Source of the DNA: Ignavibacteriales bacterium
GTDB lineage: Bacteria; Bacteroidota; Ignavibacteria; Ignavibacteriales; Ignavibacteriaceae
Assembly: GCA_012517155.1 (NCBI GenBank)
Contig: JAAYVN010000062.1
Location: 1-33,172 of the forward strand
DNA length: 33,172 nucleotides
Direction: 5' to 3'
Positions 3,460 through 23,690 of the stretch are shown piece by piece (within the stretch, counting starts at the first letter, position 1; each line of letters opens with the position of its first letter). Both the position numbers and the translations under genes were made by a program. The notes under the pieces were generated by a model that saw nothing but the letters and a program-made list of their open reading frames with translations, had not been told where the DNA came from and made no database searches.

Positions 3460-3489
3460 TTGACAACTATTTTTTTTTAGTTATATTTG
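3460..3489 (+). promoter_or_regulatory. Promoter of the receptor-to-glpT operon
   Basis: TTGACA at 3460-3465, a 16-base spacer and TATATT at 3482-3487, continuing to the TAnnTTTG form (TATATTTG, 3482-3489). Transcription should start near 3496, about 55 bases ahead of the receptor gene. This is the best promoter match in the window and the only clear one found before the long gene run 3552-22262. Confidence 0.8.
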
Positions 3490-3503
3490 CACTGTGGATT
3501 AAC

Positions 3504-3515
3504 TTGTATAGACAA
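3504..3515. promoter_or_regulatory. Candidate operator for a HutC-type GntR regulator
   Basis: TTGTATAGACAA is a palindrome apart from one base pair and contains GT-N-TA-N-AC, the operator consensus of the HutC subfamily of GntR regulators. It lies at about +8 to +20 from the expected start of transcription, a normal place for a repressor. A regulator with a GntR helix-turn-helix and UTRA domain is encoded at 12236-13030 in the same gene run. Binding is an inference. Confidence 0.6.
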
Positions 3516-3551
3516 CTAAACAATTAAAATAGTAATTTAACCAGGTCCGAT

Positions 3552-6263
3552 ATGAGAATACGAACAATTTTTCTTCTGATGTTGATGATATTTGCACAAA
3601 CAACGATTCTAAACGGTGGAACTACCGGAAAGATAAAAGGGAAAGTCATTGACAGAGATACAAAAGAACCCTTAATTGGTGCAAATGTTCTATTGGAAGG
3701 AACGACATTAGGAGCGGCAACTGATCTAAACGGAGACTATTTCATAATAAATATTCCTCCGGGTAAATATACATTAAAAGCCTCATATATTGGATATCAG
3801 CCGACCCGTGTTGTTGATATTGAAGTTTTTGTAGACCGGACAACAACCAGAGATGTTGAGCTTGTTTCAACATCTTTTCAGACCGGGGAAGTAGTGATAG
3901 TTGCTCAAAGAGAAAAGATTGAGATGGACAGAACAAATACAGCGAGCTATATTTCATCCAATCAAATAGAAGCATTACCGGCGCTTGAGATTGGTGACTT
4001 GCTTCAACTCCAGGCTGGTATTGTGAAAGGTGCTTCAGGATCTCTTCATATGCGTGGCGGCAGAGGGGGAGAAATTGCATACTTAATAGATGGTGTTCCA
4101 GTGACAGATCAATACAGAGGTGGAAGTGCCGTTGGTTTAGAGAACAATTGGGTAAAAGAGCTTCAGGTAATAAGCGGTACATTCAATGCGGAATATGGAC
4201 AAGCACAGTCAGGAGTGGTAAATATTGTTTCGAAAGAGGGGAGCTCGAAATTTGGAGGAAAGTTGCAGGTAGCCGGGGGGGATTATCTTTCGTCCAGGAG
4301 TAATATTTTTATGAACATAGATAAATATGATCTGGGTGAGAAGGATGCTACATTAACGCTGTTTGGACCCATGGGACTTCCGGATCTCTCGTTTTATACT
4401 TCTATCAGATATAGTGCATCAGATGGTTGGTTGTACGGGCAGAGACGAACGAAGACAGATGATACAGTTCCTATTCAGGCATTTATTCAGCAAAAACAAC
4501 TTGCTATAAGTGACGATGAGAGAATATACGGAATAAGAGTTCCTGATTCACTTATGACGGGAGACAAGACATTTGTTGCAATGAATCCAAGTGATAAGAT
4601 TGCGTTCTATGGAAAGATCTCAGCAAAATTAATGGGAAATCTGAAACTAAACTTCTCATCTTTTTACAATACAAATGAGTACAAAAGTTACACAAATTCA
4701 AGAAGGTACGCGCCGGATGGCTCGAGGACATATTATGGTATTAATCATAATCAGATACTCAACTTAAACCATGTGCTTTCCAACAGAACTTTTTATACAT
4801 TAAGTTTTTCTTACTATAACAATAATACTAAAAGCTATCTTTATGATGACCCGATGGATCCGAGATACAGAGGGACTGCCCATTCATTTGAGGGTTACTA
4901 TTATGGAGGAACTGACAACTATCGTTCGGATATCACTAACAGCGCGCTTGGAATAAAGGGAGATTTCAACAGTCAATTTGATAATTATAATCAATTAAAA
5001 ACCGGTTTTGAGATTAAATTACATAAAGTGGATTATAAAAGTTCAAACACAGTTTCAAACGGTCCAGTCTATAAAGAACCAAATCTTCAAGTACCTGCAC
5101 AAAACACATCAAATAATAACTTATATCTTGTAGAACCACTTGAAGCAGCGTTTTATATTCAGGATAAACTGGAACTAAAGTCAATTATTATTAATGCGGG
5201 TTTGAGAGTTGATTACTGGAATCCCAATGCCAAAGTACCTGAGAATTTAAGAGCATCAACAAATCCTAATGACGGAATAAGGCTTAATACAGGACTTTTA
5301 AATGCAGAGAAGAGGATTCAGGTGAGTCCGCGTTTCGGTTTGGCTTATCCGATTTCTGCCGATGGAGTTGTACATGTTTCCTATGGACACTTTTTTCAAT
5401 TACCAAGATTCAATGCAATATTCAATAATTATGAATTTGAAGTGGAGCTTGGCGGGCTGGAAACAACAATGGGTAATGCTAATCTGAAACCTGAAAGGAC
5501 AATTGCTTATGAATTGGGTTTGCAACAGAATATTATGGATCTGTTCAGCGTTGAAATAACAGCATACTACAAAGACATTAACAATCTGCTTGCACAAGAG
5601 ATTATTAACACAACAGATAAAAAAGTATATGCCAGATATACAAACAGGGACTATGGAAACGTAAAAGGAATAACGGTTTTATTAAGGAATAATTTTTCAG
5701 CAAACGTTTCCGGTTCCCTGGATTATACTTATCAGGTGGCTAAAGGCAATGCCTCAGATCCGAATGCTGTATTTACGAATTTTCAGACAAGTCCTCCCAA
5801 AGAAAGTGAGAAACAAGTACTGCCACTTGATTGGGATCAGAGACACACTTTAAATGCATCAATAATGTTGGGAGATATGACAAGTTGGGGGATGTCAATT
5901 ACAGGAAGATTCAGCACAGGACAACCATACACACCTTCAAATCCATCAAGTTCAATAACGACACAATTTGAGAATTCCGACAGAAAGCCAAGTTTTTATA
6001 ATATTGATATGAATATTTACAAATTTTTTGAAGTATTCGGGACAAGAATAAAGCTATATTGTCAAATTTATAACCTGACGGACCAACTGAATGAGAGATA
6101 TGTATATGCCAGCAGTGGCAGAGCTGACTATCCATTCAGAAATGCAACTGAACTGCAATTGCTGAAACAGAATCCCAACTTTACAGTTGAAGAAATAGAC
6201 TTAAGGCCGAATTATTACTCGGAACCGAGAAAAGTATTAATCGGTTTCAGTCTTGATTTTTAA
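3552..6263 (+). CDS. TonB-dependent outer-membrane receptor with carboxypeptidase-regulatory-like domain
   Basis: A 903-residue protein with a signal peptide (residues about 1-23). Residues about 26-108 form a CarboxypepD_reg-like beta domain (GKVIDRDTKEPLIGANVLLEG, DYFIINIPPGKYTLKASYIGY). The plug follows at about 120-230, with LPALEIGDLLQLQAGI, LHMRGGRGGEIAYLIDGVPV and FNAEYGQAQSGVVNIV. The rest is a beta-barrel rich in aromatic residues, ending in FSLDF with the terminal phenylalanine typical of outer-membrane barrels. Such receptors import large or scarce ligands with TonB energy. No SusD-like partner is encoded next to it; instead a T9SS cargo protein and a PorV-like protein follow. The Shine-Dalgarno is weak (AGG at 3543-3545). 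The ligand cannot be read from the sequence; the downstream glp genes suggest a glycerol-phosphate compound. Confidence 0.9.
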   Translation: MRIRTIFLLMLMIFAQTTILNGGTTGKIKGKVIDRDTKEPLIGANVLLEGTTLGAATDLNGDYFIINIPPGKYTLKASYIGYQPTRVVDIEVFVDRTTTRDVELVSTSFQTGEVVIVAQREKIEMDRTNTASYISSNQIEALPALEIGDLLQLQAGIVKGASGSLHMRGGRGGEIAYLIDGVPVTDQYRGGSAVGLENNWVKELQVISGTFNAEYGQAQSGVVNIVSKEGSSKFGGKLQVAGGDYLSSRSNIFMNIDKYDLGEKDATLTLFGPMGLPDLSFYTSIRYSASDGWLYGQRRTKTDDTVPIQAFIQQKQLAISDDERIYGIRVPDSLMTGDKTFVAMNPSDKIAFYGKISAKLMGNLKLNFSSFYNTNEYKSYTNSRRYAPDGSRTYYGINHNQILNLNHVLSNRTFYTLSFSYYNNNTKSYLYDDPMDPRYRGTAHSFEGYYYGGTDNYRSDITNSALGIKGDFNSQFDNYNQLKTGFEIKLHKVDYKSSNTVSNGPVYKEPNLQVPAQNTSNNNLYLVEPLEAAFYIQDKLELKSIIINAGLRVDYWNPNAKVPENLRASTNPNDGIRLNTGLLNAEKRIQVSPRFGLAYPISADGVVHVSYGHFFQLPRFNAIFNNYEFEVELGGLETTMGNANLKPERTIAYELGLQQNIMDLFSVEITAYYKDINNLLAQEIINTTDKKVYARYTNRDYGNVKGITVLLRNNFSANVSGSLDYTYQVAKGNASDPNAVFTNFQTSPPKESEKQVLPLDWDQRHTLNASIMLGDMTSWGMSITGRFSTGQPYTPSNPSSSITTQFENSDRKPSFYNIDMNIYKFFEVFGTRIKLYCQIYNLTDQLNERYVYASSGRADYPFRNATELQLLKQNPNFTVEEIDLRPNYYSEPRKVLIGFSLDF

Positions 6264-6267
6264 GGAG
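6262..6267 (+). promoter_or_regulatory. Ribosome binding site deciding the start of the 1060-residue protein
   Basis: AAGGAG overlaps the stop codon of the receptor gene. It is three bases from the ATG at 6271 and nine bases from the ATG at 6277, so the second ATG is favoured. Confidence 0.6.
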
Positions 6268-6276
6268 TTAATGAAT

Positions 6277-9200
6277 ATGATAAAATCAATAAACACTCAG
6301 AGTAGAATATTCAATATGAGATTGATAATTTTAATGTTTTCTGTTCTATGTATAACTTCACTTTCTTTTGCTCAGAACGAAGAAGGGGAAAAGCAGACAG
6401 CTCCAAAACCGAATTTTAGAAAAGTAAGCGGAATCCAGGAAAGAAGGACGGGAATTCATGATGGGAATCTTGTATATACAAGGTTTTCAAACTTCGGAAA
6501 TCTTGGCAGCAGATATGAACCGCCAAAAATGGAATGGCCGAAAGGGTCGGGACAATGGTACGGATATGAGTTTATCATGATTGCCGGAGCAGAAGTAGTT
6601 GACAAGCAAGGAAATACAATTCATATAATATCCGAGAATTACACGAATCCGGGTTCATTTGATATAAGTCCTGATGGGACACACACATATGGCTGGGAAC
6701 CCTTACCGGGGTATTTTAATTCCGGAGCAGAAAATAAATACAACTATCCGGCAATGAGTCATATGAAGGAAACCTGGCCACAAAACTGGCAATACGATTA
6801 TCCAGGAACACCGGGTAGCAGGGACGGATACTGGAATGGAGAGTTTGGCGCTTATGTAAGGGCAGATCAAGAAAGTTATTATGTAATGGATGACAGAAAC
6901 AATGATGAGTTTGCTTATTATCCATTTATCAGCAATACACAAGACACAATGTCTTTTCCAACAGGAAGAAGGGGATTAGGTCTTGAGGTAAAAGTTCGAG
7001 GGTACCAATGGTCTCAGGTTGAAGCTGAGGATATATTAATAGTCAGGTTCGATATTCAAAACGTAAGTGAGAAGGATCTTTCGAAAGCTATTTTCGGTAT
7101 GTATGTTGATCCGGCTATCGGAGGTGAAGGAGACTCACAGGATGATAATGCATTTTTTGATACGGAAGAAGATATTACATATTGCTGGGACCTAGATGGT
7201 CTAGATAATAAAGGAAGACCCGGAGTAGGATATTTCGGGTATGCATTTCTTGAGAGTCCAGGAGATCCTCTGAACGGATCAGATGATGATGAAGATGGTT
7301 TAATTGATGAGAGACAAGATAACGGTGCAGGAAGTATAGTTTTTGGGCCAATCGGGAATTATGGAGAACCGAAATCACACTGGTCCGGAGATGAAGATGG
7401 TGACTGGAGAACATTCACAGATGATAATGGTGATAATAAATGGAGCAATGGTGAGGATATTGGGGATGATCTGGGATCAGACGGAATAGGTCCTTATGAT
7501 ATGGATTATCCCGGGCCAGACTCTGATGGTACTGAGGCAAACGGAAAACCGGATCATGGGGAACCAAATTTTGGAAAAACTGATAATGATGAATCTGATC
7601 AAATCGGATTAACAAGTTTTCTTTTAAGACCAGCAGGCAACATAAGTGATGACGAATCTACATGGAATGAAATGACGCCGGGAATGTTTAGCGGATTATT
7701 ACCAACGAATTTAGCGTTTATATATGGATCGGGTTACTTTACTCTTCCAAGGACTGAAACGCGAAAATTTGCAATTGCAAATCTTTTTGGAAATGATTTT
7801 GATGATATTCTACGAAATAAAAGAACAATGCAAAGGATTTACAATGCTGATTATAATTTCACAAAGCCCCCCCTACTTCCAAAAGTAACTGCTGTGGCAA
7901 GTGATAAGAAAGTGATTCTAACCTGGGATGACAGAGCAGAAAGTTCAAGAGATCCTATATACGGAGAAGATTTTGAAGGATATCTCATTTACCGCTCAAC
8001 TGATCCATCATTCAATCAAATAAAAACTATAACAGATTCATATGGTAATCCGATTTTCTGGCAGCCCATAGCGCAGTATGATGTTAAGAACGGACTGACA
8101 GGGCCACATCCAATAGCAATCGGGGAAACGGGAGCCCGATTTAATATGGGTAAAGATACGGGATTGAAGTATTATTTTGTTGACGAAAACGTAGAAAACG
8201 GAAGAACTTATTATTATGCAGTGTGCTCTTATGACAAGGGATATGCAGAGGATTTCTATTCAAGAGGAATTGTAAAGCAACCAAATCTAGCTAACGCTCC
8301 CCCAAGTGAGTGTACCAAGATAATTCAAACTGATCTTTTAGGTAACGTAATTTTTGTTGACAGAAACTGTGCAGTTGTTGTACCGAATGCACCAAGCGCA
8401 GGCTATATAAAAGGAAGTATTATTGACGGGGTTACGCATACAGGAGTAGCAACCGGAAGAATAATTGTGGAACCGGTACTTTCCGATACGATTAAGAATG
8501 GAAATGTATATGAAATAACATTTTTGGATACATCAAAAGCAAGAATAACAAGCGGAGTGAGAATTAAAAACATTACTACCGGAGATACGGTTTACTCAGC
8601 GAATTATTTTGATGCAGATGAAATAAAGAGTCAGATTATTGATGGAATGACAATGGTATTCCAGAATGACACAGTTGGAGTAAAGACCAAAGAGTGGATA
8701 CCCGGACCGGCGAATTTAGATGTAAATATTGCATTACTTGAATCTCCTAAGACAATTCCGATTCCGGAGGATTTTGAAATCAGGATAGGTTCGCCGAAAT
8801 CGGATACTTCGCATAATCCGCTTGCATTTTTAAGGCAACCCGTTAACTTTTCTGTATGGAGCACATCAAAGAATCTTAAATACAAAGCTTTGTTCAATGA
8901 AAGGATCTTTAAGGACAGTTTATTAAATTCAGGCGATGAAGTTGTAGTAGTATTCGATATAAAGGGATTCGACTACAAGACTGTATGGAGGTTAAATTTC
9001 GGTGATACTCTTGCTACAACGAAAATAACCCCTCAAGCGGGAGATATTCTTAAATTTACAGTAACAAAGCCCTTTAATATTGAGGATAATTATACATTCA
9101 CAACTAAAGCAGCAACTGTTGATTTAAGCAGGGCAAAAGAGCAAATGGAGAACATTTATGTTGTTCCCGATCCTTATGTAGTATCGGCATCATGGGAAAA

Positions 9201-9459
9201 ACCCTTGTTCTATTCTTCCGGAAGAGGAGAAAGACGAGTTGATTTTGTGAATTTGCCACAGGAGTGTACAATAAGAATATACTCAGCAAGCGGAAAACTA
9301 GTAAAAACATTGGAGCACAGCGGAACCGGAAGCAACGGTTCTCATCAGTGGGATCTTACAACCGATGATGGCTTAACAGTCTCATTTGGAATATACATTT
9401 TCCACGTTGACGCTCCGGGAATCGGGTCAAAAATTGGTAAATTCGCTATCATTAAATAG
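6277..9459 (+). CDS. Large secreted protein with C-terminal T9SS/FlgD-like domain
   Basis: About 1060 residues from the ATG at 6277; an ATG at 6271 and a TTG at 6253 are alternatives. A signal peptide ends near SLSFAQ. Residues about 328-443 are very rich in Asp and Gly, with repeated calcium-loop-like runs such as SDDDEDGLIDE and DSDGTEANGKPDHGEP. Residues about 531-680 resemble a fibronectin type III domain (PKVTAVASDKKVILTWDD). The C-terminal part begins with VVPDPYVVSASW near 960 and continues into FVNLPQECTIRIYSASGKLVKTLEH, the form common in FCB-group secreted proteins that carry a type IX or FlgD-like terminal domain. It follows the receptor by 13 bases and precedes a PorV-like gene by 21. 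It is probably a surface or outer-membrane-associated partner of the receptor. No enzyme motif was recognised. Confidence 0.78.
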   Translation: MIKSINTQSRIFNMRLIILMFSVLCITSLSFAQNEEGEKQTAPKPNFRKVSGIQERRTGIHDGNLVYTRFSNFGNLGSRYEPPKMEWPKGSGQWYGYEFIMIAGAEVVDKQGNTIHIISENYTNPGSFDISPDGTHTYGWEPLPGYFNSGAENKYNYPAMSHMKETWPQNWQYDYPGTPGSRDGYWNGEFGAYVRADQESYYVMDDRNNDEFAYYPFISNTQDTMSFPTGRRGLGLEVKVRGYQWSQVEAEDILIVRFDIQNVSEKDLSKAIFGMYVDPAIGGEGDSQDDNAFFDTEEDITYCWDLDGLDNKGRPGVGYFGYAFLESPGDPLNGSDDDEDGLIDERQDNGAGSIVFGPIGNYGEPKSHWSGDEDGDWRTFTDDNGDNKWSNGEDIGDDLGSDGIGPYDMDYPGPDSDGTEANGKPDHGEPNFGKTDNDESDQIGLTSFLLRPAGNISDDESTWNEMTPGMFSGLLPTNLAFIYGSGYFTLPRTETRKFAIANLFGNDFDDILRNKRTMQRIYNADYNFTKPPLLPKVTAVASDKKVILTWDDRAESSRDPIYGEDFEGYLIYRSTDPSFNQIKTITDSYGNPIFWQPIAQYDVKNGLTGPHPIAIGETGARFNMGKDTGLKYYFVDENVENGRTYYYAVCSYDKGYAEDFYSRGIVKQPNLANAPPSECTKIIQTDLLGNVIFVDRNCAVVVPNAPSAGYIKGSIIDGVTHTGVATGRIIVEPVLSDTIKNGNVYEITFLDTSKARITSGVRIKNITTGDTVYSANYFDADEIKSQIIDGMTMVFQNDTVGVKTKEWIPGPANLDVNIALLESPKTIPIPEDFEIRIGSPKSDTSHNPLAFLRQPVNFSVWSTSKNLKYKALFNERIFKDSLLNSGDEVVVVFDIKGFDYKTVWRLNFGDTLATTKITPQAGDILKFTVTKPFNIEDNYTFTTKAATVDLSRAKEQMENIYVVPDPYVVSASWEKPLFYSSGRGERRVDFVNLPQECTIRIYSASGKLVKTLEHSGTGSNGSHQWDLTTDDGLTVSFGIYIFHVDAPGIGSKIGKFAIIK
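6470..6483. promoter_or_regulatory. Second perfect GT-N-TA-N-AC palindrome, inside a gene
   Basis: CTTGTATATACAAG is a perfect 14-base palindrome and holds the same TTGT-N-TA-N-ACAA pattern as the candidate operator at 3504-3515. It lies about 190 bases inside the second gene of the operon. It may be a secondary operator or a coincidence of coding for LVYTR. Confidence 0.3.
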
Positions 9460-9470
9460 TCGCAAAGTAT

Positions 9471-9474
9471 GGAG
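9471..9474 (+). promoter_or_regulatory. Ribosome binding site deciding the start of the PorV-like gene
   Basis: GGAG lies six bases before the ATG at 9481. The ATG at 9469 has no such site and would add four residues in front of the signal peptide. Confidence 0.65.
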
Positions 9475-9480
9475 CTAAAA

Positions 9481-10545
9481 ATGAAATCGAAAAAATATAT
9501 TTATGGAATTTTATTCATAATAACATTAATTGTTCCAAACATGTATGCGCAGTCTGGTGAGGATGAATTTTCTAAGATGAACTTTGCTGAGTCAGTAACA
9601 AACAGGGGAACTTCAGCGGCAGCTTTTTTGGAAATAGGCGTTGGGGCGAGAGCGGAAGCTATGGGGAGTGCATTTACAGCTATCTCAAATGATGCGTCTG
9701 CGCTTTACTGGAATGCAGCAGGGATCTCCGGATTAACTGACGTAAGTATAACCGCGAGTCACACAGAATGGCTGGCGGAAACAAAATTCCAAAACCTGGG
9801 TTTAGTGATACCAATTGGCGATTCAAAAGCATTTGGTTTTTCGCTTACTATGCTAGATTATATGGATAAGCAACCTGTAAGAACTATAAGGTATCCGGAA
9901 GGGACCGGAGAATATTACGATGCCTCTGATCTGGCGATTGCAGTAAGCTATGCAATGAATATTACTGAGGGTTTTTCGTTTGGTATTACAGGAAAGTATA
10001 TCTATCAAACAATATGGCATGAATCCGCAGCAGCTTTTGCGGCTGATCTGGGAATACTTTACAAAACGGATTTGAAGGGATTAACATTAGGTGCAAGTAT
10101 CTCGAATTTTGGAAGTGATATGCGACTGGACGGAAGAGACTTAATAAGACCATATGATGAGGATCAGCAGAATTATTCTAACGACAAATTAAATGTCCTG
10201 TTAAAAACAGATGAGTTCTCTCTTCCGCTTCTATTCAGATTTGGTATTGCATATAATCTGGCGGTTCATTCGGATCACGATTTTAACCTTGCCGCAGATT
10301 TACTGCATCCAAGCAATAATGTTGAGTCTATGAATGTGGGCTTAGAATATGGGTTTAAGAATGTACTCTTTTTAAGAGGGGGTTATCAGTCATTATTTGA
10401 TAACAGAAGTGAGACAGGATTAACGCTTGGAATTGGTGTAAGAAATCCGCTTTCAGATTTTCTTGATATTGAATTCAATTATGCTTATTCAGATTGGGGA
10501 AAACTAAAAAGCGTTCAAAGATTTTCAATTGACTTACGCTTTTAA
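9481..10545 (+). CDS. PorV/PorQ-family outer-membrane protein
   Basis: A 354-residue protein with a signal peptide (MKSKKYIYGILFIITLI to MYAQ). The mature N-terminal part holds the family hallmark, GARAEAMGSAFTAISNDASALYWNAAG, a FadL-like start that opens a 14-strand barrel; amphipathic strands continue to the terminal FSIDLRF. PorV (LptO) of the type IX secretion system binds the C-terminal sorting domains of cargo and shuttles them to the surface attachment machinery; PorQ-type members have related roles. It is encoded directly behind a large T9SS-type cargo protein and in one run with three or four other cargo proteins, which suggests a shuttle dedicated to this locus. That role is inferred. 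Family assignment is strong; orthology to PorV itself is not shown. Confidence 0.85.
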   Translation: MKSKKYIYGILFIITLIVPNMYAQSGEDEFSKMNFAESVTNRGTSAAAFLEIGVGARAEAMGSAFTAISNDASALYWNAAGISGLTDVSITASHTEWLAETKFQNLGLVIPIGDSKAFGFSLTMLDYMDKQPVRTIRYPEGTGEYYDASDLAIAVSYAMNITEGFSFGITGKYIYQTIWHESAAAFAADLGILYKTDLKGLTLGASISNFGSDMRLDGRDLIRPYDEDQQNYSNDKLNVLLKTDEFSLPLLFRFGIAYNLAVHSDHDFNLAADLLHPSNNVESMNVGLEYGFKNVLFLRGGYQSLFDNRSETGLTLGIGVRNPLSDFLDIEFNYAYSDWGKLKSVQRFSIDLRF

Positions 10546-10571
10546 TGAATTGATGAAAAAGGTTTCTAGTG

Positions 10572-15606: not shown

Positions 15607-15642
15607 AAAGCCTCTTCCCTCAAAGGGGAGAGGCTCTTTTAT
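15607..15642 (+). terminator. Strong hairpin terminator inside the operon
   Basis: Ten-base-pair stem GCCTCTTCCC (15610-15619) with GGGGAGAGGC (15625-15634), five-base loop, then TCTTTTATT. It follows the LamG/lamin-tail gene, and no convincing promoter is seen between it and the next gene at 15667. It may lower expression of the downstream genes rather than stop it. Confidence 0.85.
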
Positions 15643-15656
15643 TAATTAATAGTATT

Positions 15657-15662
15657 GAGGAG
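15657..15662 (+). promoter_or_regulatory. Ribosome binding site deciding a TTG start
   Basis: GAGGAG lies four bases before the TTG at 15667. The TTG at 15655 overlaps this site and so is less likely to be the start. Confidence 0.55.
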
Positions 15663-15666
15663 TTTA

Positions 15667-17493
15667 TTGAAGTTTGTATTTATTACTCTAATTATTTCCG
15701 CAAGTATACTTGCTCAGAATCGAATTCTATTCAGATACAATGCGGATTTTCCTGCGGGATCTGATCTGCAAAATGCTGTAACTCTGAATTCAGTTTCTGT
15801 ACAAAACAACATTGAAGATGAAGAGGAAACAGCAAGAGGCATTGGTGGTTGGGGTTTGCTTCCAAGAAAAAGCGCATCTTTCTCTGGGGGAGAAAGTTAT
15901 ATTGTAACGACAGGAAATGTTCAAACATCTTACTTTGGGACTATTCAGATTTCTGGGGACTTATGGATCAAACCAGAAACCCCAAATGCAGCGATCATAT
16001 CCTGGGATGATACAAGCAAGCTAACGGGTTTGAATGTTTATTTAGAGCAAGGGAAAGTCAATCTTCATTTCAGATTTCTGGGAAACAACTATATAACTAA
16101 GGCACCGGCTACCTTGGTTTTATCCGAATGGCAATTTGTAAGCTGGGGTGTAAAACTTGAGAATGGAATTCTTGAGTTAACAATTTATGTCAATCACAAA
16201 CAAATAAAGAAAGAGAATTATTCGCCTGGAACAAGTGGCGGGTTAATAGCATTGAACACAATAGTTTATTTAGGAAAGTGTATAAACAGCAGCATAAACT
16301 CACCCAATTTTCAAGGAATGATTCATGCAGCACAAATTAGAAATTATATACCAGATGATACTTATTTGCTTTCATTTCTTCCATTCGATGGAGGGAGTTA
16401 TTTTGGATTTCCCAATTTCCATGATTATCCAATATCCTTGAATTCCACACCTGTTGATAAGCGAATTAGCTCAAGTCCTACTCAAATAATGCAGAAATCA
16501 ATAGTTCCATATCAGAATGAAGGATTTATTCCACAAGGAATTACTAATACACATGAAGATGAGGACTATACAGGACCCGAGTTTATTTATATCTCAATGT
16601 ATCACAAGACTCAAACCGGAAGCACCGGAGGTAAGAGGAGCATAATAGTTGAGATTGATCCGAACAATGATTACAGAGTAAGAAGATGTTTCAGGATAAT
16701 GGGGAGTTTCGCATTTTCACATGTGGGGGGGATAGCATATAAAAACAAATCTATATATATATCCACTTCATCCAAAATTGAAGTTTACACGCTTCCGGAT
16801 TTTGTAACACCATATAACAAAAAGTATATAGACCTTACAACATCTCCTAATAATCTATATAATGTTGGGAGTAAAGCATCCTTTTGTACATATTTTATGG
16901 ATACACTGTGGGTCGGAGATTACAGGTTAAGCGGAGAGCCGACTCCATATCTTTATGGTTATCGTATTGATAACATCGGAAGGGTTGTAAACTATGAAGC
17001 ACCAACAATTTACAGGCTTCCAACAAATACACAAGGTGTTGCATGGAAAATGGTAAATAACCAGTCATACTTGTTAATTAGTCAAAGTGGTGGTGATGCC
17101 GGGAGTAAAATCCACAGAGTAAAACGCAGCGCATTAAATACGTCATCAGTACCTATTATAGACACAACATTTAAGATTCCGGCAGGGGGCGAGGACTTAA
17201 GCATTGATAAAAATGGAGATTTATTGAATGTATCTGAGTCGGGAGCGTTATATATACAAAAAGGTCCAAGTCCATTAACATCATTTTTCCCATTTATTTT
17301 TACTATTGATGATTCGATTTTATTCAACGGAATATTAACTTCAATAAATGAAATAAAGAGCGATGAATCCTCCTTGCTTCCGAATGAATATAAAATATCA
17401 TCATTCCCCAATCCTTTTAATGGAAATACCGATGTAGTAGTTTATTTACCTAATTCAGGTCTTGTTACCTTAAAGATATATAATTTAAATTGA
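15667..17493 (+). CDS. LamG/propeller-like T9SS surface protein with sorting signal cut by an in-frame TGA
   Basis: From the TTG at 15667 (GAGGAG at 15657-15662) the frame gives 608 residues, starting with signal peptide MKFVFITLIISASILAQ. Residues about 60-235 resemble a LamG-type jelly roll (GTIQISGDLWIKPE, GGLIALNTIVYLGK, FQGMIHAAQIRNY). Residues about 280-560 look like a repeated-blade fold (IPQGITNTHEDEDY, HVGGIAYKNKSIYISTSSK, GEDLSIDKNGDLLNVSESGALYI). The C-terminal sorting domain begins with FPNPFNGNT and VTLKIYNLN, then meets TGA at 17491-17493. The same frame continues for 50 more codons to a TAA at 17644-17646 and completes the domain (EEISVLQNG ... KMVYLK). In the sister proteins the stop position is a glycine, and GGA to TGA is one base change. 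As written, the product should lack a working T9SS signal. Confidence 0.85.
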   Translation: MKFVFITLIISASILAQNRILFRYNADFPAGSDLQNAVTLNSVSVQNNIEDEEETARGIGGWGLLPRKSASFSGGESYIVTTGNVQTSYFGTIQISGDLWIKPETPNAAIISWDDTSKLTGLNVYLEQGKVNLHFRFLGNNYITKAPATLVLSEWQFVSWGVKLENGILELTIYVNHKQIKKENYSPGTSGGLIALNTIVYLGKCINSSINSPNFQGMIHAAQIRNYIPDDTYLLSFLPFDGGSYFGFPNFHDYPISLNSTPVDKRISSSPTQIMQKSIVPYQNEGFIPQGITNTHEDEDYTGPEFIYISMYHKTQTGSTGGKRSIIVEIDPNNDYRVRRCFRIMGSFAFSHVGGIAYKNKSIYISTSSKIEVYTLPDFVTPYNKKYIDLTTSPNNLYNVGSKASFCTYFMDTLWVGDYRLSGEPTPYLYGYRIDNIGRVVNYEAPTIYRLPTNTQGVAWKMVNNQSYLLISQSGGDAGSKIHRVKRSALNTSSVPIIDTTFKIPAGGEDLSIDKNGDLLNVSESGALYIQKGPSPLTSFFPFIFTIDDSILFNGILTSINEIKSDESSLLPNEYKISSFPNPFNGNTDVVVYLPNSGLVTLKIYNLN

Positions 17494-17660: not shown

Positions 17661-18446
17661 ATGAAAAAATTTATCTGTTTAGTGTTAATTCTAACGGGAG
17701 TTATAATAATGGATACAGTTACTAAAGCCCAGGTAATCATAACTGCACACAGAGGTGCGAGTGGACACGCACCGGAAAACACAATGAGCTCCTTGAAAAA
17801 AGCGATTGAAATGGGGGCTGAGTTTTGCGAAATAGATGTGCAAGAAACAAGTGACGGTGTGATCATTCTTGTTCACGATAAAAATTATAAGCGAACCTGT
17901 GGTGTTGATAAGAATGTTTGGGAGACTACATACAACGAAACCAGAGAACTTGACTGTGGCAGATGGTTCGGAGATACTTTTATAGATGAACCCGTTCCCA
18001 GACTGGATGAGATAATTGATGCAGCCAGAGGGAGAATAAAACTGAATATTGAATTAAAGACAAACGGTCATGAAAAATTGCTAGCGGAAAAAGTTGTTGA
18101 ATTGCTGCTTCAAAAGAATTTTCTTACTGAAGTGATAATAACATCATTTGATTTTACGCTAATTGACAAAGTAAAATCACTTAATCCCTATATTAAATCA
18201 GGTTATATTTTCTCTAAAGTTGGAGAAAGAGATGTTTTCGCTGCTGATATCGATCTTTTAAGTGTAAACAAGAGTTTAATCAATAAGGAATTTGTGGATA
18301 AAGCTTTTGCCTCAGGGAAAGAAGTGCATGTATGGACAGTTAATGAAATCAGTGAAATGGAAAAACTGGTTGAGTTAGGTGTTACAAGTATTATAACAAA
18401 CTATCCTGACAGATTAAAGAGCGTTTTGGAGAAAAATAAGAAATGA
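17661..18446 (+). CDS. Secreted glycerophosphodiester phosphodiesterase
   Basis: A 261-residue protein with a signal peptide or N-terminal anchor (residues about 1-23, ends TKAQ). The GDPD family hydrolyses glycerophosphodiesters to glycerol 3-phosphate and an alcohol, here in the periplasm. Seen: TAHRGASGHAPENT (H30, R31, E39, N40), FCEIDVQ (E57, D59), ILVHD (H72) and KLNIELKT, which together form the TIM-barrel active site with Ca/Mg ligands, and the C-terminal VHVWTVN motif. All key residues are present. The size is close to UgpQ rather than the longer GlpQ, but export argues for a GlpQ-type role. It overlaps the next gene by 4 bases (ATGA). With glpT and glpD in the same run, its product glycerol 3-phosphate can be taken up and oxidised directly. 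Confidence 0.94.
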   Translation: MKKFICLVLILTGVIIMDTVTKAQVIITAHRGASGHAPENTMSSLKKAIEMGAEFCEIDVQETSDGVIILVHDKNYKRTCGVDKNVWETTYNETRELDCGRWFGDTFIDEPVPRLDEIIDAARGRIKLNIELKTNGHEKLLAEKVVELLLQKNFLTEVIITSFDFTLIDKVKSLNPYIKSGYIFSKVGERDVFAADIDLLSVNKSLINKEFVDKAFASGKEVHVWTVNEISEMEKLVELGVTSIITNYPDRLKSVLEKNKK

Positions 18447-19120
18447 CCACTATGCATGGGAAAATGTTCCTTTTAATTGTTTTAATAGGTTTATTTACTA
18501 ATTATAGTGAAATATATTCTCAAGAAGAACAGAAGTTCAGTACATATTTCTATGATAAATGTTCAGCGTTTGATATATTACAAGTGAAAGAGGGAAGGAT
18601 CATTTTCATCGGAGATAGCATAACCGACAGATGTGAATGGAGCGAGTTATTTCAAAGGACAGATATTATTCGGAGGGGAATAAGCGGGGATATATCAGAA
18701 GGAGTTTTAAAGCGTTTGCCGGAAATTATCAGAAGAAAACCGTCAAAAATATTTTTAATGATCGGCGTTAACGACCTGCGACGGAATTTAGATATTGATC
18801 ATGAAGTAGTAATAAACTATGCTGAAATAATTCAACAAATTAAAAAAGAATTGCCAAAGACAAAGATTTATGTTCAATCCGTATTACCTGTGAATAACAT
18901 TGTTAAAGATACAAAAACCACTAATTTAAAAGTTAAGGAATTAAACTTTAAACTTAAAAACCTTTCATTAAAAGAAGGAGTTGAGTTTATAGATCTTTTC
19001 AGTCAATTTATTGATGAGAATGGTAATCTGAAAAATGAATTGACCTCTGACGGATTACATATTAATGGTACGGGCTATGAGATATGGAGTAATTTAATTG
19101 CAGAGGACATTAAGGAATGA
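18443..19120 (+). CDS. Secreted SGNH/GDSL hydrolase
   Basis: A 225-residue protein with a signal peptide (residues about 1-27, ends IYSQ). SGNH hydrolases are esterases or lipases. Seen: block I IFIGDSITD with nucleophile S59, block II GISGD (G82), block III IGVND (N110) and block V DGLHINGTGY with D203 and H206, so the catalytic set is complete. The motif context (WSELF, RLPEII, IGVNDLRR) resembles platelet-activating-factor acetylhydrolase-like and lysophospholipase-like members. It is coupled to the phosphodiesterase gene and to the lipoprotein gene by 4-base overlaps. In this setting it may remove acyl chains from phospholipids or acyl groups from a glycerol-phosphate polymer before the phosphodiesterase acts. 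The substrate is inferred only from context. The first ATG is used because of the ATGA overlap; ATGs at 18452 and 18464 are alternatives. Confidence 0.9.
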   Translation: MTTMHGKMFLLIVLIGLFTNYSEIYSQEEQKFSTYFYDKCSAFDILQVKEGRIIFIGDSITDRCEWSELFQRTDIIRRGISGDISEGVLKRLPEIIRRKPSKIFLMIGVNDLRRNLDIDHEVVINYAEIIQQIKKELPKTKIYVQSVLPVNNIVKDTKTTNLKVKELNFKLKNLSLKEGVEFIDLFSQFIDENGNLKNELTSDGLHINGTGYEIWSNLIAEDIKE

Positions 19121-20004
19121 TGAAGGTATTACTTTTTATTTCTTTGATCTTTTTTTTAATTGGATGTTCGAGTGCACCAGAGAAAGAACTTCAATACAAA
19201 GAAAACGATTATTTTCTTAGAATTTGTGAAGTGAAGGGGAGACAAGGGGTATCTACCGATGGTGATAATATTTATATAAGCGGGACGAAAGAGTTGTATA
19301 AATATGATATGAAGGGTAAACTCCTAGTTGAGAACTTGTCTCCCTTTAAGAACATTAACTTAGAAGTAAATCATCTTGGGGATATTGATTTGCATAAAGA
19401 AGAGATATACACATGTATAGAAAAATTTACTGAAGGGCGAGGGGATAATTTTGTAATCGGTATTTACAACAAAAATGATCTGAGTCTAGTGAGAACTATT
19501 ATACCCGGGAAAAACAGCCCACAAAAAGAAATAAGTGGGATAGCTGTTGATCCGGAGAGAAAATTGATCTGGATGACAGATTGGACAGATGGTAAAAGTA
19601 TTTATTATTATGATCTTGCAACAGGAGATTACATAGGAAGGATTATATTAAAAAAAGAACTGTTTTATTTGCAAGGTATTGTAGTTCACAAAAACTATCT
19701 CCTTCTAACTGCTGATGATGGTGATGCAGAAAATGAAGTAAGTGATAATCTTTATGCAATTAAAATTAATATGTTTGCTGATGTTATTTCAACACCCATT
19801 CATTTAAAAGAATTTGAAGATGTAAAAAGGGAAGGGGAGATCGAAGGAATAACGATTAATCGAAAGAACGGTGAACTCATCGTACTTTTTAACCGGGGTG
19901 CAAAAATCATTAAAGGAATTCCGAAAGGATTCTATCCCGGTTACGATAAAGAAATTCACGAAATTTATTTTTATAAAAATATAGGACAACTACCAGAGGA
20001 TTAA
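19117..20004 (+). CDS. Lipoprotein with propeller-like repeats, function unknown
   Basis: A 295-residue protein with a lipoprotein signal: hydrophobic segment, then LIGC with the lipidated cysteine at C17. The mature part has repeated strand patterns (GVSTDGDNIYISGTKELYKYDMKGK, GIAVDPERKLIWMTDWTDGKSIYYYDL, LQGIVVHKNYLLLTADD, EGITINRKNGELIVLFNRG) typical of a beta-propeller such as NHL or SMP-30-like folds. No catalytic motif was recognised. It is coupled by ATGA to the SGNH gene and lies three bases before the HAD gene. The blade pattern is also seen in the 608-residue T9SS protein earlier in the operon. It could be an outer-membrane-attached binding protein or an esterase of the propeller type. 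The function is unknown. Confidence 0.75.
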   Translation: MMKVLLFISLIFFLIGCSSAPEKELQYKENDYFLRICEVKGRQGVSTDGDNIYISGTKELYKYDMKGKLLVENLSPFKNINLEVNHLGDIDLHKEEIYTCIEKFTEGRGDNFVIGIYNKNDLSLVRTIIPGKNSPQKEISGIAVDPERKLIWMTDWTDGKSIYYYDLATGDYIGRIILKKELFYLQGIVVHKNYLLLTADDGDAENEVSDNLYAIKINMFADVISTPIHLKEFEDVKREGEIEGITINRKNGELIVLFNRGAKIIKGIPKGFYPGYDKEIHEIYFYKNIGQLPED

Positions 20005-20006
20005 GA

Positions 20007-20903
20007 ATGAACCAAATTATGAAAATCATTTTCTATGTAATTGTATTTGTTTCGATTTCTTTCGCGCAAAATAAAACAATATTTAAACCAATATCCGGTT
20101 TTCACGAAGATGCAAACAAATTGATAGAAGAGTTCTTGATATCCACAGAAAACGAAACGGGACGAAAAATTGCAGTATTTGACGGAGACGGTACTGTGCT
20201 AGGACAAACTCCTCATTATCTTGCTGATGAGTGCATGTATGCATATATAAAGAGTAAACCGGGACACAGGACTGGACTGTTAAATGAAATGATAAATCAA
20301 TCTAATGTATCCATTCCATACGTACAAAATCGTATTCGTTTACTGGCCGGACTATCTCTAAACGAAATGCGAGAAATGGGAAAACAATGCTTTAAGGAGA
20401 GATATTCCGATAAGATATTTGAACCTATGAGGCAATTAATTAATGTTTTGAAGCAAAATGGATTTGAGGTATGGATCGTAACCGGTTCTCCGGAGGCTAT
20501 GTATCAAGGATTTCTTTCCGAAGAACTTGAGATTCCAGTAACCAATATAATCGGTGTAAAATCCGTAATCAGACATGGAATCATCACTGAAGAAATTGTA
20601 CATCCAGTACCACAGGACAGAGGTAAAATGGAAGCGATAGAGACATTCATTCAAGACAAACCATTGATAGTTGGCGGAAACAGCCGGGGTGATAAAGAAA
20701 TGATAGAGTTTAGTAAGGGATTGCGGATAATAGTGAATCCGGATACATTTGTTGCCCCAGATCAAACTGAAAGTATTTCTGATTATGCAAAAAAGGAAGG
20801 GTGGATTATTCTAAGAATTAACGATACTCCGGACGATTCTATACCATGGATTTCTACGGAAGATTATAAAATAAAAAGAAACAAAACAAATATTGTGAAG
20901 TAG
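20007..20903 (+). CDS. Secreted HAD-superfamily phosphatase
   Basis: A 298-residue protein with a signal peptide (residues about 1-21, ends SFAQ). HAD motif I is VFDGDGT with nucleophile D59 and general acid D61; motif II is VWIVTGSPEA; a lysine for motif III lies in DRGKMEAIE; motif IV is GGNSRGDKEM with the Mg-binding aspartate. The cap insertion between motifs I and II is helical (residues about 70-140). The arrangement is like phosphoserine-phosphatase-type and phosphorylcholine-phosphatase-type HAD enzymes. Being exported and encoded beside a glycerophosphodiesterase, it may remove phosphate from a head group such as phosphocholine or phosphoethanolamine, or from glycerol 3-phosphate. 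The choice among these is open. It is two bases from the lipoprotein gene and six from glpT. Confidence 0.86.
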   Translation: MNQIMKIIFYVIVFVSISFAQNKTIFKPISGFHEDANKLIEEFLISTENETGRKIAVFDGDGTVLGQTPHYLADECMYAYIKSKPGHRTGLLNEMINQSNVSIPYVQNRIRLLAGLSLNEMREMGKQCFKERYSDKIFEPMRQLINVLKQNGFEVWIVTGSPEAMYQGFLSEELEIPVTNIIGVKSVIRHGIITEEIVHPVPQDRGKMEAIETFIQDKPLIVGGNSRGDKEMIEFSKGLRIIVNPDTFVAPDQTESISDYAKKEGWIILRINDTPDDSIPWISTEDYKIKRNKTNIVK

Positions 20904-20909
20904 GTAATT

Positions 20910-22262
20910 ATGCTGAAAAAAGGATTTCAAATATTTTCTCCCGATCCGATAAAAACAAAACTGCCGGATGATAAGATAGAGAAAAATTACAAATTATTAA
21001 GGTGGAGAGTTCTGGAATCCACTTTCTTAGGATATGCCATTTTCTATCTTGTTAGAAATAATCTTTCTACAGTTGCCAAGGATATGCAAAATGCCCTCTA
21101 TTATGATAAGGACATGATAGGCAATATCCTTGCAATAACTGCTATTTCGTATGGACTAGGAAAATTTGTATTAGGTGCATGGTCAGACAGAAGCAATCCA
21201 CGTAAATTTATGGCAGCAGGATTGTTTTTTTCTGCAATCCTGAATTTTATATTTGGAGGAGTTGCCAGTTATGGTGTACATCTTTTCCTTTGGGGTTTAA
21301 ATGGATTTATTCAGGGAATGGGGTGGCCTCCATGCGGAAGGACAATGGGACATTGGTACAGTATCCGAGAGAGGGGATCAGTATTTGCAGTTTGGAACAT
21401 TGCACATAACATTGGAGGAGGAATAGCGGGAATGCTTGCCGCCTATGCGGCCATGCATTTCGGAGGGTGGCAGGCAGCATTTTATTTTCCGGGGGCAATT
21501 GCTTTAATAGGATCAGTCTATATTTGGTTCCGTTTAAAAGATACTCCACAATCATGCGGTTTGCCTCCGATTGAAGAATATAAAAAGGAAGATTATATTG
21601 ATGTAGAGATTCATGCTGAACCGGAGAGGGAACTCACATACAGGGAATTGTTTATTGACAACATACTAAGGAATAAATATTTGTGGGTTTTTGCTCTGGC
21701 TAATTTTTTTGTGTATATTGTAAGATATAGTATGCTGGACTGGGGACCGATGTACCTTAGAGAGATAAAGGACGCAACATTGGTTGGCGGTGGAATGTCC
21801 ATTCTGATAATTGAATTTGCCGGAATTCCTTCAACTCTTCTGATGGGATGGTTATCCGATAAAGCGGGAGGGAGAAGAGGAATGGTAAGTCTTCTTTGCA
21901 TGATCCCAATCCTTTTTGCATTTTTCGGGATATATATTACTCCCGCAGGTTATCTTTGGGTAGATATGGTTTTACTTGGAATTGTCGGATTTTTTGTTTA
22001 TCCACCTGTAATGCTGTTAGGAGTTTCGGGTTTAGATCTTACAAGCAAAAAAGCGGTTGGAACCGCAGCCGGCTTTATAGGGTTATTTGGTTATCTGGGG
22101 AGGACAGTTCAAGCAAAAGGATTTGGTTGGATGGCAGAGCATTTTGGGAAATTATATGATAAAAATTTCGCTTGGGAGATGATAATATTGTGTATTTTAG
22201 CTTGTACTGTTTTATCAATAATTATACTGGCTTTTACTTGGAAAATAAAACCAAAAGCATAA
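20910..22262 (+). CDS. glpT: Glycerol-3-phosphate/phosphate antiporter, OPA family (MFS)
   Basis: A 450-residue inner-membrane transporter with 12 predicted helices. Strong similarity to E. coli GlpT can be read by eye: FYLVRNNL, LGAWSDRSNPRKF, NGFIQGMGWPPCGRTMGHW, WNIAHNIGGG, the central loop DTPQSCGLPPIEEYK, and VRYSMLDWGP. The substrate-binding arginines (R49 and R272, matching GlpT R45 and R269) and the histidine H166 (GlpT H165) are present, as is K85 (GlpT K80). The family exchanges external glycerol 3-phosphate for internal phosphate. It directly follows the periplasmic enzymes that can release glycerol 3-phosphate and shares the operon with glpD. UhpT-like sugar-phosphate specificity is the main alternative, but the central loop is GlpT-like. 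Confidence 0.95.
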   Translation: MLKKGFQIFSPDPIKTKLPDDKIEKNYKLLRWRVLESTFLGYAIFYLVRNNLSTVAKDMQNALYYDKDMIGNILAITAISYGLGKFVLGAWSDRSNPRKFMAAGLFFSAILNFIFGGVASYGVHLFLWGLNGFIQGMGWPPCGRTMGHWYSIRERGSVFAVWNIAHNIGGGIAGMLAAYAAMHFGGWQAAFYFPGAIALIGSVYIWFRLKDTPQSCGLPPIEEYKKEDYIDVEIHAEPERELTYRELFIDNILRNKYLWVFALANFFVYIVRYSMLDWGPMYLREIKDATLVGGGMSILIIEFAGIPSTLLMGWLSDKAGGRRGMVSLLCMIPILFAFFGIYITPAGYLWVDMVLLGIVGFFVYPPVMLLGVSGLDLTSKKAVGTAAGFIGLFGYLGRTVQAKGFGWMAEHFGKLYDKNFAWEMIILCILACTVLSIIILAFTWKIKPKA

Positions 22263-22356
22263 AAAGTATTTAACCGGATGATAGTAAGATTAATGATAGA
22301 ATTTTGCCATTATCCAAAATAGTAAACTAAATCAATAATAAATACCAGGAGGTATC

Positions 22357-23640
22357 GTGAAAAAAATCTTCTTTTTTGCAGCTCTTCTTTTGGCTGTGAA
22401 CTTTACAAGTGCACAACTATTGGTCGAGAACTTTGACTATCCCGTGGGAAGTCTCTTAACAGCTAACGGCTGGACAAACCATAGCGGAACGGGTACTTTT
22501 TTTACTACTATACAAGGGAATTTAGCATATACGGGTTATCCTTTGAGCAATATTGGTAACATGATATATGTTACAGGAGGCAGCGGATCAAGAGAGGATG
22601 TTAACAGAGCATTCATGCCGGGAATTGTCCAAGGAAATGCATATTTAACATTCCTTATCAATGTTGATTCTGCAAACACAACAGGAGACTACTTCTTACA
22701 TACAGCGCCAGTTCCGATGGGATCAGCATACAGATGCAGAGTATTCGTAAAGGGTGATGGAGCAACAGGATTCCAGATCGGGATTGCAAAATCCGGCGGC
22801 ACAGGAGCTGTTCCACCAGTTTACTCCACTTCATTAAATTTCAATACTACTTATTTAGTTGTTGCTAAGTATGAAATTATTGGTGACACAACAGGTTATG
22901 ATGATGTAGTGAAATTATATCTTAATCCGAATTTATCGCAACCTGAACCTGTAACACCTACTTTGTTCCACGAAGATACAACGTCAGGTGCAAAAGACAG
23001 ACCTGTTCAAACAGTAGCAATAAGGCAGGGTGCAAATAACCTAGGGTTGAGATTGGATGGACTTATGGTCACGGATAACTGGCCATTGGTGGTTCCTGTT
23101 GAACTCGCAAGTTTTACAACAAATACTACGAACAACAACACAGAATTACACTGGGCAACTGCAACAGAAACTAATAATAGCGGTTTTGAAGTTTTGAGAA
23201 ACGGGACGGTGATTGCATTTATAAAAGGTAACGGAACATCGGCCTCAGTTAATAGCTATTCATATACTGATAATAATCTGGCTAACGGGAAATATACTTA
23301 TGAACTGAAACAGATTGATTTTGATGGCACAGCAGTAATAGTTGCTAAAGCTGAGGTTGAAGTAAATTACTCACCTTCAAATTTTGAGCTTCTAAACAAC
23401 TATCCTAATCCATTTAACCCATCTACAGTGATTAGTTATAATCTACCTGTAGAAAGCAAAGTTACTCTGAAAATCTATGATGTATTAGGTAATGAAGTAG
23501 CTACTTTGGTTAATGGTCAAATGTTGGCAGGAACGCATTCCGTAACATTCAATGCAAGCGGACTACCAAGCGGAATTTACCTTTATTCAATTCAGGCAGG
23601 AAATTTCACTAGCACTAAAAAATTGATGCTTACGAAATAA
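22357..23640 (+). CDS. Secreted T9SS cargo protein, function unknown
   Basis: A 427-residue protein with a GTG start at 22357, supported by AGGAGG at 22347-22352. Signal peptide 1-20 (ends FTSAQ). Residues about 22-235 are beta-rich with a jelly-roll look (LLVENFDYPVGSLL, YLTFLINVDSAN, YRCRVFVKGDG, GLRLDGLMV) and resemble N-terminal domains of FCB-group secreted proteins. Residues about 248-340 are a short fibronectin-like linker (PVELASFTTNT, LHWATATETNNSGFEV). Residues about 345-427 are a type A T9SS sorting domain (NYPNPFNPSTVI, VTLKIYDVLGNEVATLVNG, KLMLTK). The 94-base gap to glpT holds no clear promoter, so it may end the operon; a separate weak promoter cannot be excluded. No catalytic motif was recognised. 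Confidence 0.85.
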   Translation: MKKIFFFAALLLAVNFTSAQLLVENFDYPVGSLLTANGWTNHSGTGTFFTTIQGNLAYTGYPLSNIGNMIYVTGGSGSREDVNRAFMPGIVQGNAYLTFLINVDSANTTGDYFLHTAPVPMGSAYRCRVFVKGDGATGFQIGIAKSGGTGAVPPVYSTSLNFNTTYLVVAKYEIIGDTTGYDDVVKLYLNPNLSQPEPVTPTLFHEDTTSGAKDRPVQTVAIRQGANNLGLRLDGLMVTDNWPLVVPVELASFTTNTTNNNTELHWATATETNNSGFEVLRNGTVIAFIKGNGTSASVNSYSYTDNNLANGKYTYELKQIDFDGTAVIVAKAEVEVNYSPSNFELLNNYPNPFNPSTVISYNLPVESKVTLKIYDVLGNEVATLVNGQMLAGTHSVTFNASGLPSGIYLYSIQAGNFTSTKKLMLTK

Positions 23641-23655
23641 TCTGGTTTCAAAAAA

Positions 23656-23690
23656 AAAGCCGGGATATAAGTTCCGGCTTTAATTTTTTA
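23656..23690 (+). terminator. Rho-independent terminator ending the operon
   Basis: Stem AAAGCCGGGA (23656-23665) with TTCCGGCTTT (23672-23681), six-base loop, followed by AATTTTTTA. Confidence 0.92.

Follow-up and report, generated by a model that had tools for sequence, protein, structure and literature searches.

The glp regulon of Escherichia coli comprises a glycerophosphodiester diesterase (UgpQ/GlpQ), the glycerol 3-phosphate (G3P) importer GlpT and the respiratory dehydrogenase GlpD, with GlpK and the DeoR-type regulator GlpR. Polysaccharide utilisation loci (PULs) of the SusCD type join a receptor, surface binders, periplasmic enzymes, an inner-membrane importer and a local regulator in one operon. 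The PUS clusters of Flavobacterium join TonB-dependent transporters (TBDTs) or SusCD pairs to phosphodiesterases or phosphomonoesterases and surface lipoproteins, and the accessible part of the source describes them as induced by phosphate depletion, with PUSIII including proteins with domains of the type IX secretion system (T9SS) (PMC8115612). Here, we describe an operon of the window, that is, the whole 33,172-nucleotide stretch analysed (contig JAAYVN010000062.1 of an Ignavibacteriales bacterium, assembly GCA_012517155.1), that joins an outer-membrane triad, namely a TBDT, a surface protein (SurfA) and a PorV/PorQ-family protein, to a glycerol-phosphate path formed by a glycerophosphodiester phosphodiesterase (GDPD), a GlpT-like transporter and GlpD.

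The operon shares the diesterase, G3P importer and dehydrogenase with the E. coli regulon, but they stand in a single operon with the outer-membrane triad, a GntR/UTRA regulator takes the place of GlpR, and no GlpK match was found in the genome. It shares the layout of SusCD PULs, but the path is one for glycerol phosphate, not glycan, and the receptor scores 79.8 bits on the SusC/RagA model TIGR04056, far below the cut-off of 368.25. SusD (PF07980) was matched in none of five genomes, and among 14 control genomes Bacteroides ihuae alone matched. Neither a SusD/RagB protein beside SusC nor a SusC/RagA-type receptor was thus found, in agreement with the PUL-like layout without SusD that an earlier reading of this DNA from its letters alone (the original prediction) had proposed. 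As in PUS clusters, a TonB-type transporter stands beside a phosphodiesterase; in contrast, PusCD has SusD-like proteins and the other PUS clusters have TBDTs, and the SurfA-PorV triad, a GntR regulator and a GlpT-GlpD set are unnamed for PUS in the accessible part of the source (PMC8115612). The earlier remark was that no described locus was known; the PUS clusters, in which SusCD or a TBDT stands where this operon has the triad, are a published parallel and, as far as that part of the source goes, the nearest described idea. Searches of open-licence literature found neither this gene make-up nor the triad described, and the triad as an uptake unit is the bolder claim made here.

The window genome (G000; 3.29 Mb in 160 contigs, 99.65% complete) carries the operon as 13 plus-strand open reading frames (ORFs) at 3552-23640, numbered in Table 1, and the predicted gene number, front promoter and end terminator were all recovered. 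The promoter region can also be read as TATATTTG, which we take to fit the Bacteroidetes-type -7 element TAnnTTTG. Intergenic gaps range from -11 to +23 nt with three exceptions, after gene 6 (57 nt from start TTG 15655 or 69 nt from start TTG 15667), after gene 7 (167 nt) and before gene 13 (94 nt); the original prediction had the first and the last of these, but missed the second. The gene families that it named agree with the domain calls, but the GntR/UTRA regulator, gene 5, was left unnamed. The operon as a unit, its gene order, its conservation and its families can be read directly from the sequences, as can the coincidence of operator-like site and repressor and the lack of SusD and glycerol kinase matches in this genome.

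Conservation was followed with the lipoprotein as marker (E <= 1e-10), which in a sample of 395 genomes of the phylum matched two, the window genome and G050 (different family, same order), and in 245 genomes of Neomarinimicrobiota another two, G501 and G743; as the former two were not among the Neomarinimicrobiota matches, the two phyla are taken as different. All four marker-bearing genomes contain the cluster. In G050, the first 12 genes follow the window order with a PpiC-type peptidyl-prolyl isomerase (PPIase) inserted between LamGprop and GDPD, and a surface metallophosphoesterase and a lamin-tail-domain (LTD) protein come after the cluster. In G501 and G743, the order starts with TBDT-SurfA-PorV-LTD-LamGprop, continues with two metallophosphoesterases and a PPIase-like protein and closes with GDPD-lipoprotein-GlpT, so that eight genes are common to the window with their order kept; the PPIase-like protein falls short of the Pfam cut-off in G501 and has no match in G743. 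GntR, HAD, SGNH and GlpD are not inside these two clusters; upstream of each cluster, its contig carries a second glycerol-phosphate set and, beyond that set, GlpD and an SGNH gene. The window TBDT is 55-61% and SurfA 61-68% identical to those of the three other clusters. As four genomes from two phyla share at least eight of the genes in one order, the arrangement is, as judged from gene order, not due to chance. The comparison of gene order across genomes, named beforehand as the way to refute the link between surface and glycerol-phosphate genes, thus found them together and supports a single unit joining the surface genes to the GDPD-GlpT-GlpD path.

The window genome has one GDPD (the sole PF03009 match), one GlpD (the sole match at E <= 1e-15) and one GlpT (E <= 1e-60), every one in this operon. 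In these families, GDPD releases G3P and an alcohol, GlpT exchanges G3P for phosphate and GlpD oxidizes G3P to dihydroxyacetone phosphate (DHAP). Aligned with E. coli GlpT (1pw4), the GlpT-like protein is identical at Arg45, Arg269 and His165. Glycerol kinase had no match in G000 or G050, where GlpD would thus need G3P from diesters or synthesis; G501 and G743 have one elsewhere. When GlpT was used as the query, 15 of 146 genomes of the order matched at E <= 1e-60, with identity above 50% only in its own genome and G050 (72%) and of 31-46% in the remaining matches, and a scan of named genomes gave at least 16 loci with GlpT at 44-69% identity, of which L002 is the G501 cluster.

Given these contents, we consider it fairly probable that the operon is a SusD-less, PUL-like locus reaching from the outer membrane to the cytoplasm and using glycerophosphodiesters or phospholipid remains. 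Surface proteins, some of them T9SS-sorted, would capture or expose the substrate, and the TBDT, SurfA and PorV-family protein would carry it through the outer membrane. In the periplasm, it may then be cleaved to G3P and an alcohol by the exported GDPD while the SGNH esterase strips acyl groups, after which GlpT would carry G3P across the inner membrane for oxidation to DHAP by GlpD. The operon-encoded GntR/UTRA protein would repress the whole unit at an operator behind the promoter until released by a phosphorylated metabolite, and the hairpin that follows gene 6 probably keeps transcript levels of the enzyme genes below those of the surface genes. We infer the substrate, its capture, the secretion route, the division of labour in the triad, the roles of the SGNH, HAD and lipoprotein genes, the effector, the repression and the attenuation. 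The substrate is probably phospholipid-derived headgroup diesters, since GDPD, a lysophospholipase-like side of the SGNH esterase and the ethanolamine permease EutH in one sister locus (see below) favour phospholipid remains. With such a locus, organic phosphorus and lipid remains would join the nutrients that are handled in a PUL-like way.

Table 1. Features of the operon in the window, with the evidence for each
Feature	Position	Strand	Evidence or remark
Operon promoter TTGACA-16-TATATT	3460..3487	+	11/12 consensus bases; top site within 3201-23200
Predicted GntR operator TTGTATAGACAA (12 bases)	3504..3515	.	Directly behind promoter; single exact copy in 3.29 Mb genome
Gene 1, TonB-dependent receptor (triad gene 1)	3552..6263	+	TonB barrel 2.2e-27, plug, CarbopepD_reg_2
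Gene 2, SurfA, 1068-aa surface protein (triad gene 2)	6253..9459	+	Member of widespread paralogous family
Gene 3, PorV/PorQ-family outer-membrane protein (triad gene 3)	9469..10545	+	NF033709 217.6 bits, cut-off 90
Gene 4, GlpD, glycerol-3-phosphate dehydrogenase	10569..12239	+	NF008899 368 bits, cut-off 360
Gene 5, GntR/HutC (UTRA) repressor, NagR/DasR-like	12236..13030	+	GntR plus UTRA domains
Gene 6, LTD surface protein: LamG, two lamin-tail domains, T9SS sorting tail	13033..15597	+	LTD 9.1e-29; TIGR04183 37.3 bits, cut-off 23
Internal hairpin with T-rich tail, between LTD and LamGprop	15609..15635	+	z -4.34
Gene 7, LamGprop surface protein	15655..17493	+	Weak LamG (under cut-off), conserved C-terminal part, sorting tail truncated
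Gene 8, GDPD, exported glycerophosphodiester phosphodiesterase	17661..18446	+	PF03009 8.2e-42, 144.4 bits against gathering score 23.6; signal sequence by eye
Gene 9, SGNH/GDSL esterase, exported	18443..19120	+	Nearest solved relatives 7pzg, 6njc; signal sequence by eye
Gene 10, lipoprotein	19117..20004	+	Lipobox by eye; predicted beta-propeller, model pLDDT 80
Gene 11, HAD-IB phosphatase, exported	20007..20903	+	Domain matches; signal sequence by eye
Gene 12, GlpT-like glycerol-3-phosphate transporter	20910..22262	+	2.1e-110 to E. coli GlpT 1pw4
Gene 13, small surface protein with T9SS sorting tail	22357..23640	+	TIGR04183 47.8 bits, cut-off 23
Operon terminator hairpin	23656..23681	+	Folding z -5.13

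The regulator has NagR (YvoA) and DasR as its nearest solved relatives. The 12-mer proposed as its operator recurs identically in the G050 operon, on the opposite strand, behind the promoter-like TTGACA-15-GATACT and again as a single copy in the genome. Base composition predicts 1.5 copies per 3.29 Mb, so that uniqueness alone is unremarkable, and the pattern read backwards, as a control, gave one and two copies in the two genomes; the chance of a copy within 300 bases upstream is approximately 1.4e-4 per operon. Up to 300 bases upstream of 22 TBDT genes, the exact 12-mer occurred at two, those of the GntR-bearing operons, with at least two mismatches at the other 20, and four mismatches upstream of the two Neomarinimicrobiota clusters, which have no GntR. 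In NagR, Arg38 and Arg48 read the adjacent operator guanines G-5 and G-4, the accessible part of the source leaving unstated which arginine reads which (PMC4333415). The window regulator has Asn at residue 38 (Ala in G050) and Arg at residue 48, and the predicted site, in our own numbering, has no G-5 and has G-4 in both halves. Compared with the NagR/DasR repressors and their dre operators, as far as the accessible part of the source describes them (PMC4333415), the domain make-up, the phosphate-binding arginines (Arg133 and Arg135 here), G-4 in both halves and the position of the operator at the promoter of the regulator's own operon are the same, whereas Arg38 and G-5 are both absent here and the setting is a glycerol-phosphate operon. 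Furthermore, Ser90 replaces Thr90, and Ser166-Ile167-Phe168 replaces Ser165-Ile166-Tyr167. Because the phosphate-binding residues are kept, the effector is probably phosphorylated, and the coincidence of repressor and site suggests that GntR may act at this operator. A unique operator with matching repressor changes offers a DNA-binding test case for one NagR-like branch.

The internal terminator claimed in the original prediction is a real hairpin, found at the LTD/LamGprop junction of all four clusters with differing sequences (z -4.34, -5.25, -5.75 and -8.45) and with a T-rich tail that stands out in the window and G050 and is weaker in the G501 and G743 clusters. It is probably an attenuator, partial terminator or processing site. 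A division into two independent units at this hairpin was set aside, as all four clusters hold both halves together.

The outer-membrane part of the operon belongs to a wider family in genomes without SusD. SurfA relatives occur in 132 of 146 genomes of the order (E <= 1e-40). In a sample of 26 SurfA loci chosen by score, the window included, 23 have a TBDT directly before and a PorV-family gene directly after, the stretch end cutting the TBDT in L045 and L046 and the PorV gene in L052; G502b (L041, Calditrichota) has the order TBDT-PorV-SurfA, and the other two are a contig end (L028) and a fragmentary SurfA match (L029). Triads lie within approximately 6 kb of alpha-amylases in G050 (L037, opposite strand), G501 (L040) and G502 (L043). 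Others have a GH16 or GH5 glucanase nearby, in G501 (L039), G502 (L042) and G005 (L049). The main trees have 18 rows, with L028 and L029 omitted as cut or broken triads. The four triads of glycerol-phosphate clusters form one group per tree (support 100/100 for TBDT, 100/99 for SurfA and 99/98 for PorV), separate from paralogues of their own genomes in all three trees. Each of the three trees also pairs the glucan-side triad of G501 with that of G502 and groups the amylase-side triads of G050 and G501, which the amylase-side triad of G502 joins in the TBDT tree only (88/87). This concordance makes the triad look, in these trees, inherited as a unit and largely by substrate type.

Next in similarity within the order, as picked by score, are the SurfA proteins of sister loci in G012, G006, G096 and G117, in which the triad is followed by a PPIase-like protein and a major facilitator superfamily (MFS) protein of the organophosphate-antiporter type. 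The MFS protein of G006 scores best on the PgtP-type model TIGR00881 (238 of 408 bits; GlpT 197 of 633), both below cut-off. Behind these, the loci of G012, G006 and G117 encode a DAO protein, whose best NCBIfam match in G006 is the type 2 G3P oxidase (251.5 of 460 bits), a pyridine-nucleotide oxidoreductase and a permease, which is EutH in G117 and of the amino-acid-permease family in G006, together with PhoD-type phosphatases and a glycerol kinase that scores over cut-off. The G096 locus meets the contig end after the MFS gene, and the glycerol kinase of this genome lies on a different contig. The EutH ethanolamine permease lies at L047:15202-16326, inside a triad-glycerol locus. Extended trees were made in two sets, one without L028, L029 and L027 (long branch) and the other without L027, and also without L046 for TBDT. 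GDPD-type and GlpK-type triads fall in one supported group (100/99, 99/97 and 100/99) with G502b inside, for which reason the class 'GDPD type plus GlpK type' requires two changes in the SurfA and TBDT trees; in the PorV extended tree it forms one group, though with support of only 48/5.

We tentatively propose, judging it slightly less probable than its opposite, that the triad is a separate nutrient uptake machine that replaces SusCD in SusD-less phyla of the FCB group. SurfA would be a surface capture part dedicated to the receptor and the PorV-family protein a dedicated outer-membrane partner, and each triad would evolve as one unit with its own substrate type (starch, beta-glucan or glycerol phosphate), the window holding the glycerol-phosphate type. 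This would be a candidate route by which SusD-lacking relatives of Bacteroidota import large or scarce nutrients, with testable substrate assignments. As a separate observation, PPIase/SurA-like proteins recur beside triads, over the Pfam cut-off at L018:14481-16031, L046:12271-13824 and L041:901-2346, under it at L021:11452-13131 and L041:6408-8126, without a match at L032:6434-7975, and by eye also in L039, L042 and L043; the window operon has no such gene. They are perhaps dedicated folding helpers of the triads.

Several results weigh against the proposed use of glycerophosphodiesters by a single unit. The unit is rare, the count of 2 in 395 genomes of the phylum including the window genome itself. 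G502b adjoins the glycerol-phosphate group in all three main trees and lies inside the larger glycerol group in the extended trees, and its locus holds a LacI regulator, a protein with a 3-keto-disaccharide-hydrolase domain and no recognized glycerol gene. The GlpT-like protein scores 439.7 bits on the equivalog TIGR00712, under the cut-off of 632.55, though this is still its best-scoring family, and the SGNH esterase is roughly as near to sialate O-acetylesterase (6njc) as to lysophospholipase L1 (7pzg). The UTRA sugar contacts Phe89, Glu145 and Tyr228 (Tyr229 here) are retained, so that the effector might be an amino-sugar phosphate. Folding is also stronger than in shuffled sequences in the 94 nt that precede gene 13 (z -3.41), so that hairpins are not limited to the LTD/LamGprop junction; this gap and the internal hairpin would allow more than one transcript. 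EutB was matched in none of eight genomes, leaving ethanolamine use via EutBC unsupported and giving ethanolamine less weight.

As to the substrate, EutH in one sister locus points to headgroup lipids, and the PhoD-type phosphatases of sister loci would also suit teichoic acids. Bacillus subtilis PhoD acts on teichoic acid, and the target might be a glycerol-phosphate polymer from other bacteria, namely wall or lipoteichoic acid that perhaps carries sugar or acyl groups, which surface phosphoesterases would depolymerize and SGNH deacylate while GntR senses a sugar phosphate. Surface phosphatases of the PhoD type in the sister loci, metallophosphoesterases in three of the four clusters, the nearness of SGNH to sialate O-acetylesterase and the retained sugar contacts would suit such a polymer; however, the window operon has neither PhoD nor a recognized polymer endo-enzyme, no glycosidase was recognized in the part of the proteins of the four clusters that was scanned, and EutH better fits ethanolamine headgroups, making this explanation quite unlikely.

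That the locus mainly scavenges phosphorus, as a counterpart of the Flavobacterium PUS with G3P as phosphate source and carbon use secondary, is also unlikely. The PUS clusters, as the accessible part of the source has them, offer the precedent of phosphate-responsive transporters and phosphodiesterases (PMC8115612), and an exported HAD phosphatase here and metallophosphoesterases in sister clusters would fit it, but GlpD in the operon and GlpK with a G3P-oxidase-like gene in the sister loci point to carbon catabolism, and the operon encodes a GntR regulator of the ligand type in place of PhoB or an ECF factor. A generic surface triad might also be co-transcribed with a glycerol-phosphate operon by mere neighbourhood, without shared function, as the commonness of SurfA relatives, the hairpin within the unit and the related G502b triad without a recognized glycerol gene would allow; the order shared by two phyla, the separation of the glycerol-phosphate triads from same-genome paralogues and the sister triads that likewise adjoin glycerol genes make this highly improbable. 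We thus retain the use of glycerophosphodiesters or phospholipid remains as the best explanation.

The T9SS machinery was judged by the PorU sortase model alone, which was over cut-off in all five genomes. The claim of T9SS surface proteins is supported for genes 6 and 13, the C-terminal sorting domains of which are above cut-off, but not for SurfA, all matches of which to sorting-domain models are below cut-off. Likewise, the 'PorV-like shuttle' is supported at the level of the PorV/PorQ family but not by the PorV equivalog model (80 bits, cut-off 250). The tail of gene 7 is removed by an in-frame TGA at 17491-17493, where the ORF really stops, so that the small gap originally given after this gene would imply readthrough; the homologous tail runs on in frame to 17646 and the position is intact in three orthologues, and the TGA may be a true mutation or an assembly fault. 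When SurfA was searched by fold, fibronectin-III and other beta-sandwich proteins matched, including parts of glycoside-phosphorylase-type enzymes at probability 1.00, all with query TM-scores <=0.17; this is a weak lead that names no function. The lipoprotein had no Pfam match at E <= 0.001 and no NCBIfam match at E <= 0.01, and its model matches many propellers, which name no function; as a check for a common origin, hhalign of it against the C-terminal part of gene 7 gave a probability of 5% and an E-value of 0.0079 (four sequences per side).

In 4 of the 16 GlpT loci listed, a HAD phosphatase stands immediately before GlpT without the other genes (L003:9169-11347, L004:433-2585, L005:9183-11323 and L007:9055-11329, in Leptospiraceae, Deltaproteobacteria and Myxococcota records), and the two may act as a pair. 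The HAD protein as a PchP-type phosphocholine phosphatase is unsupported, a profile search of solved structures (E <= 0.1) giving 4ovy, 4gxt and 3kd3 only. The second glycerol-phosphate set of the two Neomarinimicrobiota genomes (L022:11191-17255, L050:365-7236, L051:1-8211 and L034:12191-15938) comprises GDPD, a glycerol-1-phosphate dehydrogenase-like protein, a NagD-like HAD, a GlpT-like protein, RpiB, a sugar-binding regulator and GlpD; as glycerol-1-phosphate dehydrogenase is the best NCBIfam match of one of its proteins (170 of 413 bits), the set might use archaeal-type glycerol 1-phosphate. In the window, an Rfam search matched tRNAs only; a tRNA-Ser (GCT) lies on the minus strand at 23732-23821, directly beyond the operon terminator, and a terminator-like hairpin of its own faces the operon. 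Further downstream and outside the operon, an exported 1540-aa protein (28207-32829) has a weak T9SS-type C-terminal match.

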